From: Flavobacteriaceae bacterium
Lineage (GTDB): Bacteria > Bacteroidota > Bacteroidia > Flavobacteriales > Flavobacteriaceae
Length of the DNA: 10,270 nt
Assembly: GCA_002401385.1 (NCBI GenBank)
Contig: NVSY01000021.1
Coordinates: forward strand, 29,304-39,573
Direction of reading: 5' to 3'
A program made the translations under genes and the position numbers. Under the pieces are notes generated by a model. That model saw only the letters and a program-made list of their open reading frames with translations. It made no database searches and was not told the DNA's origin. Below, piece by piece: positions 350 through 10,124 of this stretch (its first letter is position 1; every line of letters starts with the position of its first letter).

Positions 350-365
350 AAATTAAGAAACGAAT

Positions 366-404
366 ATGATTTTTTTTAATCAAAAAATACACGCAAGGGT
401 CTGA
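366..404 (+). other. 12-codon open frame inside an inverted repeat (possible leader peptide)
   Basis: The frame runs ATG to TGA and would encode MIFFNQKIHARV. It overlaps an inverted repeat with arms TTTTAATCA (374-382) and TGATTAAAA (402-410) and a 19-nt loop. A homologous frame of identical length occurs on the minus strand at 9710-9748 (MNFFNQKIPPRV), also upstream of the same hairpin leader. Between the copies the frame and stop are kept while a few codons change, one of them synonymously (GTC/GTA). This could be a translated leader peptide, or a conserved DNA or RNA hairpin that happens to be open. No ribosome binding site can be judged because this group uses weak ones. Confidence 0.3.
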
Positions 405-507
405 TTAAAATAAATTCAAGTGAGAACGCGTGTAACGCGTGTAACGCGTGTTTACACGGGTTCTCAAATTTAAAAATAATTTTAGTTAATTACAAAATTT
501 TAAACAC
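405..507 (+). promoter_or_regulatory. Repeated hairpin leader, copy 1 (upstream of the 508-909 gene)
   Basis: The hairpin spans 422-465. GAGAAC (422-427) pairs with GTTCTC (460-465), then comes a G/G mismatch, and CGTGTAA (429-435) pairs with TTACACG (452-458). The 16-nt loop contains further copies of a 9-bp unit, CGCGTGTAA, at 427-435, 436-444 and, in part, 445-451. The hairpin is followed by CAAATTT, an A/T-rich spacer, and ACAAAATTTTAAACACATG ending in the start codon at 508-510. The same layout occurs on the minus strand before the genes starting at 4170 and 9616. There is no T-run after the stem, so it is not a simple terminator. It is interpreted as a 5'-UTR element acting on transcription or translation, because its identity stops at the ATG. 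Confidence 0.8.
427..451 (+). repeat. Tandem 9-bp repeat (CGCGTGTAA, about 2.8 copies) inside leader copy 1
   Basis: Units are at 427-435, 436-444 and 445-451 (partial). The other two leader copies have only about two degenerate units (CGAGTG-type), so the loop length differs by one unit between copies. This fits slippage within the hairpin. Each unit could pair with the downstream TTACACG arm, so alternative foldings exist. Confidence 0.8.
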
Positions 508-909
508 ATGAAAAAATCAAAAGAAGAAAACACCATATTAGTAGACAATTCTAACAAGAGTATCCTTGTTCGCGGTTGTGATCCTGCAATGGCTTTACAA
601 GGAGCAAAAATGTTACCACCTCTTGTTGGAAACCCTACATGTGTTGGCACCACAAGTGATACTGATTTTATCGAAAAATTAAAATCACAAAAATGGTCCG
701 TCGTGTTCTTTGCTCCAGGTGCTTGTAGATTTAATGCTGCACAGTTGCCCATTCCAGGAAGTAATTCTCAAACAGAAGGTTGGCCCCTCGTCCAGTATCG
801 TACTCTTGTGAGAGAATTGCAAGGCGAAGGGATCCAAATAGTGGAAACACAGTTAGAAAGCGAAACTGTTGAATTGATAAAAAATGCATTAGCAAAAGTT
901 AGCGCCTAA
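508..909 (+). CDS. Uncharacterised 133-residue cytosolic protein behind the hairpin leader
   Basis: I do not recognise a named family. There is no signal peptide or membrane segment, and the N-terminus is charged (MKKSKEEN), so it is probably cytosolic. Cysteines are at residues 24, 45 and 73. The stretch around 63-73 (W-S-V-V-F-F-A-P-G-A-C) looks like the central beta strand and Cys loop of a thioredoxin-like fold. It lacks the classical CxxC pair, so this is only a suggestion. A Pro/Gly-rich segment (residues 36-46) and a second one (79-92) flank it, and the C-terminal 35 residues look like a beta strand followed by an amphipathic helix. The start at 508 is chosen because the conserved leader block ends exactly there, as in the two other leader copies. 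There is no obvious terminator after the stop, and base composition is slightly less AT-rich than its neighbours. It is a real gene with unknown function. Confidence 0.75.
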   Translation: MKKSKEENTILVDNSNKSILVRGCDPAMALQGAKMLPPLVGNPTCVGTTSDTDFIEKLKSQKWSVVFFAPGACRFNAAQLPIPGSNSQTEGWPLVQYRTLVRELQGEGIQIVETQLESETVELIKNALAKVSA

Positions 910-2110: not shown

Positions 2111-2803
2111 CTATTTTATTCCAGACCATTCAATTTTTACATATCCATTACCACCTTTAATGCCGGGTTGTGCACTTGTTGGAACTAAATTATTGACTTC
2201 AGTTCCAATGCCTCCATTTCCTCCAATACCAAATGTGCTGAAATTATCTCCTCCTATACCACCTGTACCAGCTATTCCATTCCAATTTACATCCAATAAC
2301 TCACCATTGCCTCCAGCGCTTCCTTGTGGGAAACCAATTCCTCCGGTTCCTCCAACATTTTCATTTATAGTGTTACTTTTTCCTCCATTCCCATGAATTG
2401 CCATAAATAGCGTTATTTGTTCCAGTGATATTTCAGATAATTGTCCATCTAAGCCATTACCATTGACATTTCCACCATTACCTCCTTCTCCTATGTTCAC
2501 AGTATAGTTCACGTTTTCTTGTAAGTCTATATCTATCAAGAGTTTTACTTCTCCAGCACCACCACCTCCACCACCACCTGTAGATGAATTTCCGGCATTA
2601 AAACCAACGCCTCCGCCACCTCCGCCACCAGCACCGACAATTGTAATGGTTGCTTTTATATTACTTGCGTTAATCTTAAAATTATGAATACCAATCTCTG
2701 AAAATTCAAATGTGCCTGAAATTTCTTTTTGGTCATCATTTGAGCATCCAACTACTATTAAAATAATCAGTAGAGAAAATAATTTTGTTATTATATTTTT
2801 CAT
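2111..2803 (-). CDS. Glycine-rich outer-surface or periplasmic lipoprotein
   Basis: The 230-residue precursor has a lipoprotein signal: Lys at positions 2 and 7, a hydrophobic core LLIILIVVG and the lipid-modified Cys20, followed by Ser-Asn-Asp-Asp. In Flavobacteria, such acidic residues after the Cys can direct export to the outer surface. The mature part opens with a beta strand typical of the glycine-rich domain seen in phage-tail and adhesin-like proteins (F-K-I ... I-K-A-T-I-T-I-V-G-A-G-G). Poly-Gly runs follow at about 57-65 and 76-83, then a Y-T-V-N-I-G-x-G-G-x-G-G segment, several G-G-x-G repeats, and a closing G-G-N-G-Y-V-K-I-E-W strand. This order suggests one complete glycine-rich domain and little else. 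The role may be structural or adhesive, but nothing in the context proves it. A promoter box lies 158 bp upstream. The gene is not closely linked to others. Confidence 0.8.
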   Translation of the reverse strand: MKNIITKLFSLLIILIVVGCSNDDQKEISGTFEFSEIGIHNFKINASNIKATITIVGAGGGGGGGVGFNAGNSSTGGGGGGGAGEVKLLIDIDLQENVNYTVNIGEGGNGGNVNGNGLDGQLSEISLEQITLFMAIHGNGGKSNTINENVGGTGGIGFPQGSAGGNGELLDVNWNGIAGTGGIGGDNFSTFGIGGNGGIGTEVNNLVPTSAQPGIKGGNGYVKIEWSGIK

Positions 2804-3795: not shown

Positions 3796-4170
3796 TTAAT
3801 TGCTTTTTATCCATATTTCTCCATCTTCAGTTCTTCGTAACGTTGTAGCATCAATTATGGTAAAAGTTATATCGTAATTCAATCCTGGTGATTGTTCAAA
3901 CGTTACATTAGATTCGTTGCTACTATATGTTGTCTGAAATACAATATCGCCACCTCCAATTAATACACTTACAATTCCTGAATCATTGAACACAATGAAT
4001 TCAAGACAATTAATCTCTGGATTACTCGAATTATCGCAATCTTCAAGCAGATGCGTATATTCTCCATTTAAATCAAACTTACGCTCATTTTCATCATTTG
4101 TACAAGAAGTAATTCCTAAAATAATTATTGATAGAAATAAGTTGATAATCAATCTGTTTACTTTTTTCAT
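3796..4170 (-). CDS. Small lipocalin-like orphan lipoprotein under hairpin leader copy 2
   Basis: The start is set at the ATG at 4170-4168 (124 residues, MKKVNRL). The longer frame from 4230 would begin inside the leader hairpin, whereas the other two leader copies end exactly at an ATG followed by AAA. The signal peptide has a hydrophobic stretch LIINLFLSIIILGITS and Cys23 followed by Thr-Asn-Asp-Glu, a lipobox with an acidic sorting tail. The mature domain of about 100 residues looks like a small beta barrel. It opens with L-N-G-E-Y and closes with D-A-T-T-L-R-R-T-E-D-G-E-I-W-I-K, a pattern found in lipocalin-like META or DUF-type lipoproteins of Bacteroidota. Two Cys residues (in D-C-D and N-C-L) could bridge. 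It is the first gene of a likely pair with the 3681-3214 gene. Confidence 0.7.
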   Translation of the reverse strand: MKKVNRLIINLFLSIIILGITSCTNDENERKFDLNGEYTHLLEDCDNSSNPEINCLEFIVFNDSGIVSVLIGGGDIVFQTTYSSNESNVTFEQSPGLNYDITFTIIDATTLRRTEDGEIWIKSN

Positions 4171-4262
4171 GTGTTTAAAATTTTGTAATTGAATAAAAAT
4201 ATTTAAAAATTTGAGAACCCATGTAAGCACTCGTTACACTCGTTCTCACAAGAATTTAATTT
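4171..4262 (-). promoter_or_regulatory. Repeated hairpin leader, copy 2
   Basis: The hairpin spans 4213-4247: GAGAAC pairs with GTTCTC, a GA/GG internal loop follows, and GTGTAA pairs with TTACAT through one G-U pair, with a 7-nt loop. After the hairpin come CAAATTT, a spacer of about 20 nt, and ACAAAATTTTAAACACATG ending in the start codon at 4170. Similarity to copies 1 and 3 extends about 15 bp beyond the hairpin on the far side (AAATTC-n-n-GTGAGAACG). The upstream inverted repeat and 12-codon frame of the other copies are missing here. Confidence 0.8.
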
Positions 4263-7918: not shown

Positions 7919-9616
7919 TTAATATCCAGCTGCTTGCCCGTCTTTTCGACTTTCTGAAGCGCCATGATAGACTTTATTTTCTTTGTCCCACAAAATCGCT
8001 TGATAACCGCCGTATATGCCTCTTCCAAAACTTACCTTATGCTTTTTATCCATAAGTCCTCTTACAGTTTTATAAGAAATACCCGATTCCAGTCTTATTT
8101 CTCCAGTTCCTTTCTGAGTTATTCCTGTTGGAGTTGATGTGCCAATATGGTCCCATCGAGGAGCGTCTCCAGCTTCCTGTAAATTCATACCAAAGTCTAT
8201 GAGGTTCATTACTATTTGTGTATGCCCTTGAGGTTGAAAATCTCCTCCCATGACACCAAAGCTCACAAATGGTTCTGCATCTTTTGTGATAAAAGCGGGT
8301 ATGATCGTATGAAAAGGTCTTTTGTCAGGTTGATACGTATTGGCCTGTCCTCTTTTTAAACTGAACAATTCACCACGATCCTGAAGCATGAATCCTAGTT
8401 TTGGTGGCACCATTCCTGAGCCCATACCACGATAATTACTTTGAATTAATGAAATCATATTTCCGTATTTGTCAGCAACAGTCAAATAAACCGTTTCCCC
8501 TGCACTGATTTCTCCTGCTTCATAAGTAGAAGCTCTGTTACTAATTAACTTTCTTCTTTCTTCTGCATAACTATCCGATAATAATTTTTTTATGGGTACA
8601 TTAGTAAAATCCATATCAGCATAGTATTTGGCTCTGTCCTCAAAAGCTAATTTTTTAGCTTCTGTAAAAAGATGAAGATGCGCTGCACTGCCAAAATTAA
8701 TTTTAGAGAAGTCATACCCTTCAAGTATTTGAAGCATTTGTAGTGCAGCTATTCCCTGACCATTTGGAGGAAGTTCCCAAACATCATAACCTCTATAGTT
8801 TATTGAAACAGGGGTCACCCATTCTGAATGATGGGCTGCCAAATCTCTTTCTGACAAGAAGCCACCTTGACCCTGTATAAAGTTGGCGATAGTTTTCGCA
8901 ATTTCACCCTTGTAAAATGCATCCCTCCCTTCTTTGGCGATTTTTTTATACGTAGTAGCCAAATAAAGATTTTTGTAAATCTCTCCTTCTCCCACTAAGT
9001 GATTCATATTTTGCTTTATATATGTGTCTTCAATGTTTGGATAACCCAATTTCATAAAATAAGGAATGGATTTTTGCATATACCAAGCGATAAGCTCTGT
9101 TAGCGGAAAACCTGTTTCAGCATACGATATAGCGGGCGCCAAAATATCCTCCATTCTCATTGATCCAAACTTTTGATGCAACTCAAACCAGCCATCAACA
9201 GTGCCAGGAACACTCACTGGAAGAGGTCCATAAGATGGAATTTTTTCCATCCCTTTATTTTCGAAATATTCTAATGTTAACTCTTTTGGCGATCTTCCAC
9301 TGGCATTAAGTCCATAAAGTTTTTTTGTTTTCGCATCCCAAACAATTGCGAACAAATCTCCTCCAATACCACTTCCTGTAGGTTCCATGAGTCCTAATGC
9401 CGCATTTGCTGCAATGGCGGCATCAATTGCATTACCACCGTTTTTAAGTATGTCAAGTCCAATTTGTGTTGCCAATGGATGACTTGTTGCAACCATTCCT
9501 TTTTGTGCCAATACTTCAGATCTTGTAGCAAATGATGCACCTGTTACTCTGTCCTGACCGAATAAAAAGGAGGTGGATAGAATACTTAACAATAGGTTTA
9601 GAATAAATATTTTCAT
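7919..9616 (-). CDS. ggt: Gamma-glutamyltransferase-family N-terminal nucleophile hydrolase, exported
   Basis: The 565-residue length is typical of the family. Residues 1-20 form a signal peptide (MKIFILNLLLSILSTSFLFG), so it acts in the periplasm. The large-subunit part has M-V-A-T-S-H-P-L-A-T (41-50) and G-G-N-A-I-D-A-A-I-A (60-69), both family signatures. The autocleavage site is Thr375 in G-E-T-V-Y-L-T-V-A-D-K-Y-G-N. Thr375 becomes the nucleophile of the small subunit (375-565), followed by a substrate loop with G-V-M-G-G-D-F-Q-P-Q-G-H near 454-465. Classical enzymes transfer or hydrolyse the gamma-glutamyl group of glutathione. The Q-P-Q-G-H loop is instead typical of the wider gamma-glutamyltransferase/acylase-like branch, so glutathione is not certain as the substrate. 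It stands alone behind hairpin leader copy 3, the only enzyme of central interest under that element. Confidence 0.9.
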   Translation of the reverse strand: MKIFILNLLLSILSTSFLFGQDRVTGASFATRSEVLAQKGMVATSHPLATQIGLDILKNGGNAIDAAIAANAALGLMEPTGSGIGGDLFAIVWDAKTKKLYGLNASGRSPKELTLEYFENKGMEKIPSYGPLPVSVPGTVDGWFELHQKFGSMRMEDILAPAISYAETGFPLTELIAWYMQKSIPYFMKLGYPNIEDTYIKQNMNHLVGEGEIYKNLYLATTYKKIAKEGRDAFYKGEIAKTIANFIQGQGGFLSERDLAAHHSEWVTPVSINYRGYDVWELPPNGQGIAALQMLQILEGYDFSKINFGSAAHLHLFTEAKKLAFEDRAKYYADMDFTNVPIKKLLSDSYAEERRKLISNRASTYEAGEISAGETVYLTVADKYGNMISLIQSNYRGMGSGMVPPKLGFMLQDRGELFSLKRGQANTYQPDKRPFHTIIPAFITKDAEPFVSFGVMGGDFQPQGHTQIVMNLIDFGMNLQEAGDAPRWDHIGTSTPTGITQKGTGEIRLESGISYKTVRGLMDKKHKVSFGRGIYGGYQAILWDKENKVYHGASESRKDGQAAGY

Positions 9617-9703
9617 GTGTTTAAAATTTTGTAATGACTAAAGTTATTTCAAAATTTGAGAACCCATGTAAGCACTCCCTACACTCGTTCTCACATGAAT
9701 TTA
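9617..9703 (-). promoter_or_regulatory. Repeated hairpin leader, copy 3 (upstream of gamma-glutamyltransferase)
   Basis: The hairpin at 9658-9692 has GAGAAC pairing with GTTCTC, then a GA/GG internal loop. GTGTAG pairs with the CTTACAT arm through T-A, G-C, T-A and A-T plus G-U pairs at both ends. The block ACAAAATTTTAAACACATG ends at the start codon (9616-9614), as in copies 1 and 2. The change of A to G in the inner stem relative to copy 2 keeps a G-U pair. Confidence 0.8.
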
Positions 9704-9709
9704 TTTTAA

Positions 9710-9748
9710 TCATACCCTTGGGGGTATTTTTTGATTAAAAAAATTCAT
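9710..9748 (-). other. 12-codon frame matching that at 366-404, with nested inverted repeats
   Basis: The frame ATG (9748-9746) to TGA (9712-9710) encodes MNFFNQKIPPRV. Outer arms 9704-9712 and 9732-9740 form the same 9-bp inverted repeat as in copy 1. An inner TACCC/GGGTA stem (9713-9717 with 9722-9726) adds to it. The frame coincides with the last 12 codons of the DUF6090-like remnant that reads in from the right, so it may be a leader peptide, a gene end, or both. Confidence 0.3.
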
Positions 9749-10083
9749 GTTCCTTTCATAGATATTACCTTGGCGATCAAAATCAGAATATTGGGTTAGA
9801 TTTCGTACAATTTTTCCTAAAGTATCTAGTTGACTTCTATCGTTGGCTTCAATAATCTTATTGGCATATATAAATTGCTCCATATAGTAATTATTAAAGT
9901 CTTTTTGACTCTGAATTAATTCCTTATCATCTATAATTTGATCTCTAATGTTTTTGTAATAATTCAGTTCCGAATTTCTTTTTATACGACTGTCATTCAT
10001 ATTATTAACCTGAAATGCCAAACCAATACCAAAAACAATTCAAAATGACCGATATAAATAGCTTCTTTTTCGTTCTTTCGTTG
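9710..10083 (-). pseudogene. Frameshifted, 5'-truncated DUF6090-like gene
   Basis: A 103-codon frame (10021-9710) opens with A-F-Q-V-N-N-M-N-D-S-R, followed by a charged helical region (Y-Y-K-N-I-R-D-Q-I-I-D-D-K-E-L). DUF6090-like flavobacterial proteins usually have a membrane helix ending in L-I-A-L-Q-I-N-N-W-N-E before exactly such a helix. The missing helix is found just upstream in another frame: E-A-I-Y-I-G-H-F-E-L-F-L-V at about 10062-10024. The join to G-I-G-L-A-F-Q-V needs a frameshift near 10020-10030. The upstream frame is closed by TAA at 10084-10086 and has no start codon. It is thus a decayed family member lacking its N-terminal basic segment. Its last codons lie in the repeated inverted-repeat block. 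The family assignment is by recall and is moderate. Confidence 0.5.
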
Positions 10084-10086
10084 TTA

Positions 10087-10124
10087 AAAAATCTAACGAT
10101 AGCTATGGCTATCGTTAGATTTTT
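10087..10124. terminator. 17-bp perfect hairpin with T-runs on both strands
   Basis: The arms 10087-10103 and 10108-10124 are exactly complementary around a TATG loop, with A-run and T-run ends. The minus strand reads stem then TTTTTT, the plus strand stem then TTTTT, so it could terminate in both directions. The stop codon (TAA, 10117-10115) of the truncated gene to the right lies inside the stem. It separates two DUF6090-like fragments. Confidence 0.8.

Follow-up and report, generated by a model that had tools for sequence, protein, structure and literature searches.

A short repeated leader of Flavobacteriaceae genes as a probable start-codon-directed, non-autonomous mobile element with a covarying internal guide-like motif

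The IS110/IS1111 elements insert sequence-specifically by means of a DEDD recombinase and a two-loop bridge RNA, and their structured non-coding end guides both donor and target. The repeated leader described here shares with these bridge-RNA elements sequence-specific insertion and a structured non-coding end, which may guide both donor and target. It also shares several traits with the IS200/IS605 elements (IS608, ISDra2), namely subterminal hairpins with no terminal inverted repeats seen, a fixed short target 5' of the element, and an internal guide, 5' of the right hairpin, pairing with the right end, where the ATG would here be the cleavage site. In IS200/IS605, the internal guide base-pairs with the right cleavage site as tetranucleotides, according to the passage of PMC6006769 on these elements; the pairing of the present element is longer, closes a long hairpin at the ATG and is imperfect in most host copies. 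Also unlike IS200/IS605, no Y1 gene is linked to the element here, its target requirement runs 3' of the junction (AAA), and insertion is strongly biased to start codons. With the REP/REPIN repeats and their RAYTs it has in common short, structured, non-coding repeats, species-specific amplification and a presumed trans-acting enzyme; it differs in that it inserts in a single orientation at ATGAAA, forms head-to-tail arrays in the host, flanks no Y1 gene found, and by eye lacks a GT[AG]G foot 5' of the hairpin, a foot that is not required in subclass 2.6. Bacterial MITEs, such as those of Porphyromonas gingivalis in the relevant part of PMC4596501, are likewise short, non-coding and repeated, whereas the element has a start-codon target and no TIRs that could be seen: by eye, its left AAACGAACATG and right TTTTAAACACATG are not the inverted repeats of a TIR-type (DDE) MITE. 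What we describe is a short non-autonomous mobile element, unusual for its start-codon target and its covarying internal guide-like motif. Neither a published description of the family nor a printed match to its sequence was found in the open-licence literature of PMC. The nearest printed statement, in the portion of PMC6006769 on subclass 2.6, concerns structures flanking these RAYT genes, which flank tests left unconnected with the element; the atypical REP sequences in Table S1 of that paper may include a relative.

The window, that is, the whole stretch of 10,270 nt analysed from contig NVSY01000021.1 of a Flavobacteriaceae bacterium (the host), holds three copies of the leader, each ending at the ATG of an ORF and located where a preliminary description had placed them (Table 1). 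When aligned, the three have in common a hairpin, CAAATTT, an A/T spacer and ACAAAATTTTAAACACATG. The left edge given in that description, at 405, lay too far to the right, because copies 1 and 3 share another 50–60 nt on the left that include an A/T-rich hairpin (TTTTAATCA...TGATTAAAA). Copy 1 is old: its left ATG has decayed to AAG, and an additional 9-nt repeat lies within hairpin 2. Copy 2 is 5'-truncated at about unit position 53, with the left hairpin gone, and copy 3 has TCT joined to ATGAAAGGAACATG as its left junction. Folding gave the GAGAAC/GTTCTC hairpin z-scores of -3.51 in copy 2 and -5.08 in copy 3, beside the value listed for copy 1. The downstream genes had been called unrelated, and nine downstream proteins that were checked have indeed no Pfam family in common. 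The Rfam 15 covariance models gave no match at E<=1 in the window and, in nine related loci, one weak match (E 0.022, L128 614-666) that lies off the element (1502-1638 there); the statements that the hairpin is not a plain terminator and corresponds to no named riboswitch thus hold as far as tested, with no Rfam match at the element.

Table 1. Copies of the element in the window with their internal motifs and downstream genes, and the RAYT-like gene of the host
Feature	Position	Strand	Remarks
Copy 1	355-510	+	156 nt; ends at the ATG of ORF 508-909 (C60:29658-29813)
Hairpin 2 of copy 1 (GAGAAC/GTTCTC), as seen in the preliminary description	423-466	+	z -6.44 (416-470 folded)
Guide-like motif within copy 1, CACGGGTT, which faces the right end	455-462	+	sequence and family covariation
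Right end of copy 1, AAACAC + ATG, partner of the internal motif	502-510	+	
Gene after copy 1	508-909	+	133-aa protein, no Pfam match
Copy 2	4168-4262	-	ends at the ATG (4170-4168) of a lipoprotein-like ORF (C60:33471-33565)
Internal motif of copy 2, CATGGGTT	4216-4223	-	
Gene after copy 2	3796-4170	-	124 aa, lipoprotein-like N-terminus (by eye), no Pfam match
Copy 3	9614-9759	-	full length, 146 nt; ends at the ATG 9616-9614 (C60:38917-39062)
Internal motif of copy 3, CATGGGTT	9661-9668	-	
Gene after copy 3	7919-9616	-	gamma-glutamyltranspeptidase, Pfam PF01019
Host's only RAYT-like Y1 gene, with an apparent frameshift	L113 (G000:C27:38000-42589), ~2297-2620	-	own GCGGATTTGCAATCCGTGC-type palindromes

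In the 3.15-Mb draft genome of the host, which is 82.3% complete, the right-end 19-mer ACAAAATTTTAAACACATG has 106 matches with up to two mismatches (100 of the 106 places listed), and the reversed control has none; the leader copies are therefore not chance similarity. A search of the host and of other Flavobacteriaceae, proposed in the preliminary description, yielded at least 105 copies in the host and the right-end motif in 15 of 397 genomes of the family. The host total, a lower bound, comprises 101 aligned copies and four more read at left-end matches: 79 of the 83 left-end matches lie within aligned copies that reach the right end, and the other four are two full copies, one that runs off a contig end and one with its right part deleted. 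The 101 aligned copies occupy 78 sites (58 single, 17 double and 3 triple), and no two of them within 1 kb lie on opposite strands. Arrays are head-to-tail with a period of mostly 143–144 bp, the unit being about 144 bp long, and mean divergence from the majority sequence is about 4–5% over unit positions 5–100. A typical unit reads (..TT)ATG-AAACGAACATGAATTT...TTTTAAACAC-ATG-AA; at the left junction xATG is mostly joined to AA(A/C)CGAACATG, and at the right junction AAACACATG mostly to AA.

We have little doubt that the repeated leader is mobile DNA, a start-codon-directed element, because flanks joined without it align to empty orthologous sites with the native ATG at the junction. For eight insertion sites, 200 nt of each flank were joined in this way and searched in three congeners. 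Alignments that span the junction were obtained for six of the eight loci, each locus in one to three of the congeners, 12 alignments in total at 67–85% identity and every one with ATG opposite ATG (some with 1-nt gaps beside it, and one with ATGCA instead of ATGAA). The remaining matches, among them a weaker second G003 locus for C41, stop short of the junction, and no match in the three congeners spans it for the intragenic site or for window copy 1. At C17:15464, the insertion interrupts a coding frame that, by eye, reads on once the element is left out. The three congeners carry 1, 2 and 1 right-end motifs, with equal numbers by BLAST (14 of 34–40 candidates scored). Flanks compared by eye also point to older common sites: the element at host site C32:20569 has a counterpart at G002:C87, and of the one at host site C49:63583 only the last 37 nt are left in G001:C145. 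A shortened first copy precedes full copies in 5 of 20 arrays, which suggests that later array copies entered again at the start codon, although the shortening could be later; overall divergence gives no order of copies within arrays. The earlier proposal that the leaders were copied or mobile, rather than products of gene duplication, is strongly borne out by the roughly 105 copies, the tandem arrays and the empty orthologous sites.

The element inserts into ATGAAA, mostly where its ATG is a real start codon, and in the host it prefers TTATGAAA. Of the 78 sites, 71 have ATGAAA and 65 are gene starts (an ORF of >=37 aa from the ATG; two were set by eye, with a partial copy intervening), leaving 13 without a recognisable gene start, a few of them with Ns or possible frameshifted starts. 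The left ATG is preceded by TT in 40 of 64 full-length first copies, as against 10 of 61 unoccupied ATGAA starts; among non-coding ATGAA sites the figure is 11 of 162. Occupancy is higher at starts than at non-coding sites (odds ratios 13.3 for ATGAA, 13.8 for ATGAAA, 11.1 for TATGAAA and 6.0, P=0.02, for TTATGAAA); these values are only estimates, because the DNA was sampled around insertions and genes were called simply as ORFs. At 17 of the 64 sites with a full-length first copy, an upstream ORF on the same strand ends 0–20 nt before the insertion. These data bear on the earlier observation that identity between the leaders is bounded by the ATG. A sharp edge is present there, but the AA(A) that follows is also nearly fixed in the copies, because the target is ATGAAA. 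The edge thus reflects target choice, and with 13 of 78 sites not being gene starts, it no longer serves as an argument for a 5'-UTR regulatory element. Insertion of this kind would alter neither the ATG nor the reading frame, and the element would become the gene's new 5' leader. A Kozak-like leader was considered and rejected: the element has C at -3, where A favours initiation in F. johnsoniae, as stated in the relevant part of PMC6847099. Settling at start codons while sparing the protein, an element of this kind can give dozens of genes in one lineage new 5' leaders, and for annotators this means that common leaders in Bacteroidota need not be riboswitches.

From 19 diverse copies, RNAalifold predicts hairpin 1, hairpin 3 (AAATTTT/AAAATTT) and, unexpectedly, pairing of a conserved middle CATN with the right-end NATG, with two-sided changes in 11 of 30 predicted pairs; hairpin 1 lies near the left end and hairpin 3 and the guide stem at the right, so that subterminal hairpins occur at both ends. 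The right end, C-Y'-X'-ATG, has its complement in an internal CAT-X-Y-G, and the two covary between foreign copies, as in CATCCG/CGGATG, CATCAG/CTGATG, CATTAG/CTAATG, CATATG/CATATG and CATTCG/CGAATG. The pairing was assessed in 85 distinct foreign copies collected by a left-end/right-end pattern, 77 of which have the internal motif by pattern (in some of the other eight a variant is visible by eye). Complementarity holds at both X and Y in 54 of the 77, against a shuffle mean of 13.7, and in 12 of 28 distinct motif/end pairs, against a mean of 2.4; none of 20,000 shuffles, which ignore the relatedness of the copies, was as high in either case. In the host, 64 of 101 copies have one mismatch (CATGGGTT vs CATGTGTT) and 2 are perfect; five have a right end changed so as to match CATATG, one of them with the matching internal change. 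G421 copies likewise show one mismatch between internal motif and right end. The adjoining TT-n-CAT would be able to pair with ATG-n-AA, in keeping with the AA(A) that the target demands, but pairing of TTnCAT with the target's ATGnAA is only a conjecture, since both are nearly invariant and the search pattern presupposed TT. Near the left end, the CAT that precedes hairpin 1 might pair with the ATG of the target; the base ahead of this ATG differs by genome without a matching change of guide. The base before the left ATG is T in the host (51/64), A in Marinilabilia (21/27) and mixed in G421, a difference that no pairing explains; a left-flank preference following the internal guide was dropped, as the flank base varies by genome without a matching guide change. 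The element offers a testable case in which guide-like base pairing may fix the insertion site of a short non-coding element, and the covariation of X and Y with the right end predicts the effect of mutations. At the foot of the left hairpin (alignment columns 7-13 and 66-72), CGAR...YGAG shows partial R-Y covariation, with C-G changed to U-A in two rows. We take this foot to be the context of tandem sheared G-A pairs, and it may be a protein-binding mark of the left end.

Relatives of the element are found well beyond the host. The right-end motif (one mismatch) occurs 95 times in the host and one to three times in each of the other positive Flavobacteriaceae genomes, the control of this family-wide search giving one match, in another genome. 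By eye, the architecture is unchanged, and the hairpins are strongly diverged, in most of the loci read from these other genomes; L122, L124, L135 and L138 are without it, and L116, L127 and L134 have it in part. A scan of named genomes found the element family in Tenacibaculum sp. MAR_2009_124, Marinilabilia salmonicolor and Bacteroidales MAGs (11 matches), except that a match in a Polaromonas MAG is unlike the element and one MAG match (L150) is a right half only. Right ends with <=3 mismatches number 71 in Marinilabilia (G420), 42 and 38 in the MAGs G424 and G421, 17 in G250 and 1–6 in nine other genomes, and a left-end 14-mer (one mismatch) occurs 158 times in Marinilabilia and 30 times in G421; controls gave 0 in both searches. 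The family is separately amplified in Marinilabilia and in Bacteroidales MAGs. In a sample of the phylum, the exact left 15-mer matches more than once in two of 296 genomes (56 times in the host, 6 times in G552) and once in seven others, against two matches for the control; the distribution is patchy, as for mobile DNA. Plasmids, queried once with the Bacteroidales form, gave no match, and neither did phages with one query of the host form or viral contigs with one of the exact right-end pattern. Unit length in relatives is about 90–190 bp vs about 144 bp in the host. Marinilabilia has a second form of about 91–102 nt, and a similar short form is seen in five of six loci of G552, which lies outside the host's class, and in G433. 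By a loose pattern, 17 of 20 further left-end sites in Marinilabilia have a right end 91–102 nt on; among the three that do not, one resembles a diverged short copy and one is decayed. In G023 (L062/L129), the gene after the element starts with ATGAAACGAACATTT (MKRT..), the first 13 nt of which equal the element's left end, perhaps an excision footprint turned N-terminus, and a similar left-end remnant lies at host C44:10367.

Very probably, this is a non-autonomous, non-coding element that inserts into ATGAAA, mostly at start codons. A transposase supplied in trans would move it, and the pairing would act as a guide in the folded single strand, setting cleavage or joining at the right-end ATG. 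Of the mechanisms considered, the one favoured, if short of probable, is an HUH/Y1-like single-strand mechanism as in IS200/IS605 transposition. We regard as plausible, though likewise short of probable, that these form a new class of guide-carrying mobile elements homing to start codons by way of a 5'-TTnCATXYG-3' that reads the joined site: TTnCAT would pair with the target's ATGnAA, and XYG with CY'X' at the right end of the element itself. If true, such pairing would make insertion gene-start-specific and spare the protein. Y1_Tnp was found in 9 of 19 genomes searched, all 19 having a match to the element or its right-end motif, and gave no match in the other 10. None of the 27 Y1_Tnp matches listed, nor the host's one, has the element beside it within about 1.5 kb per side by long- and short-form profiles, in a scan that was shorter at contig ends and used the Y1_Tnp model only (sub-threshold matches at E 0.25 and 0.54). 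No autonomous copy was seen among the host's 83 left-end matches. Six Marinilabilia loci with IS200-like genes were read, and five have their own palindromes (by eye).

Movement by another guided system, either an IS110-like bridge-RNA recombinase or reverse transcription into the site, is in our view unlikely. It would account for an ATGAAA common to donor end and target, for a guide-like motif that can span the junction, and for asymmetric loss, since the left part is lost or deleted in 11 copies of the junction list (contig ends excluded) and the right end in 1 of the 82 left-end matches that do not run off a contig. By eye, however, at least three of the 11 left losses are deletions inside the copy, between short repeats (ACATG or AACGA), the truncated copies show by eye no ATG target remnant at the left edge, and selection that keeps the leader beside its gene explains the asymmetry equally well.

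Unlikely as well is a spreading riboregulator, in which the internal CAU of the leader RNA would pair with the AUG in a closed state, in competition with hairpin 2 in an open one; if true, many genes would stand under one translational switch. The anti-start pairing covaries, GTTCTC is common to both structures, and with RNA parameters the predicted probability that the AUG is unpaired is <=0.02 in eight of nine foreign copies folded and 0.10–0.14 in the ninth, L151. For the host consensus, to which the downstream bases of one copy were added, it is <=0.08, or 0.37–0.48 with DNA parameters. Against this, the AUGs of the window are predicted to be partly open (0.98/0.82/0.46 in copy 1, 0.93/0.30/0.16 in copy 2 and 0.62/0.54/0.46 in copy 3), and the short copies of Marinilabilia and G552 lack hairpin 2 yet keep the pairing. 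The sites that are not gene starts (13 of 78), the lack of a common Pfam family among the nine downstream proteins checked and the patchy distribution (15 of 397 family genomes) also speak against such a regulator. For a mobile element, a regulatory side effect through masking of the start codon is possible, because folding predicts a paired AUG in many copies, and a switch between hairpin 2 and the closing stem is conceivable, as the two have GTTCTC in common. Strong silencing seems unlikely at one G552 copy, since it precedes a gene that reads, by eye, as a glutamate racemase.

That a RAYT (TnpA-REP) of the Bacteroidetes subclass 2.6 moves the element as a REP/REPIN-like repeat appears very improbable. 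Subclass 2.6 Bacteroidetes RAYTs are flanked by atypical structures with copies elsewhere, as the corresponding part of PMC6006769 has it, and the host has one RAYT-like Y1_Tnp match (Table 1). That gene looks broken, however, with a 107-aa ORF and the rest in another frame (by eye), and it is flanked by other palindromes, of the GCGGATTTGCAATCCGTGC type (by eye), rather than by this element; moreover, neither form of the element, long or short, flanks any of the 27 Y1 matches, and 10 of the 19 genomes searched gave no Y1_Tnp match. With no RAYT-like Y1 gene flanked by the element, a RAYT as the mobiliser is not supported. As a separate observation, Marinilabilia carries two nearly identical RAYT-like genes (L180/L181, G420) about 5 kb apart, with nearly identical near flanks; RAYT genes are generally single for each repeat type, in the account given in part of PMC6006769. 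Finally, a non-mobile 5' UTR inherited vertically through gene duplication or common regulation is virtually untenable: some sites are common to host and congeners (G002:C87, G001:C145, G002:C7), but the empty orthologous sites contradict it for the six aligned loci, and tandem arrays at one start codon, unrelated downstream genes and the insertion inside a coding frame (C17:15464) count against it as well.

Other repeats occur near the element. The 40–50 nt to the left of copies C59:56806 (L186) and C42:100539 (L074) are alike (GGGGTAGTTAAACA.CAGAAT.GAAGTTT) and are perhaps another repeat or a common upstream element. Within the window, two direct-repeat pairs, 2950-2973/4381-4404 (92%) and 3063-3097/4488-4522 (86%), are spaced by 1431 and 1425 and may represent a duplicated intergenic block, and a palindrome at about 10086-10124, AAAAATCTAACGATAGC.TATG.GCTATCGTTAGATTTTT, looks like a bidirectional terminator.
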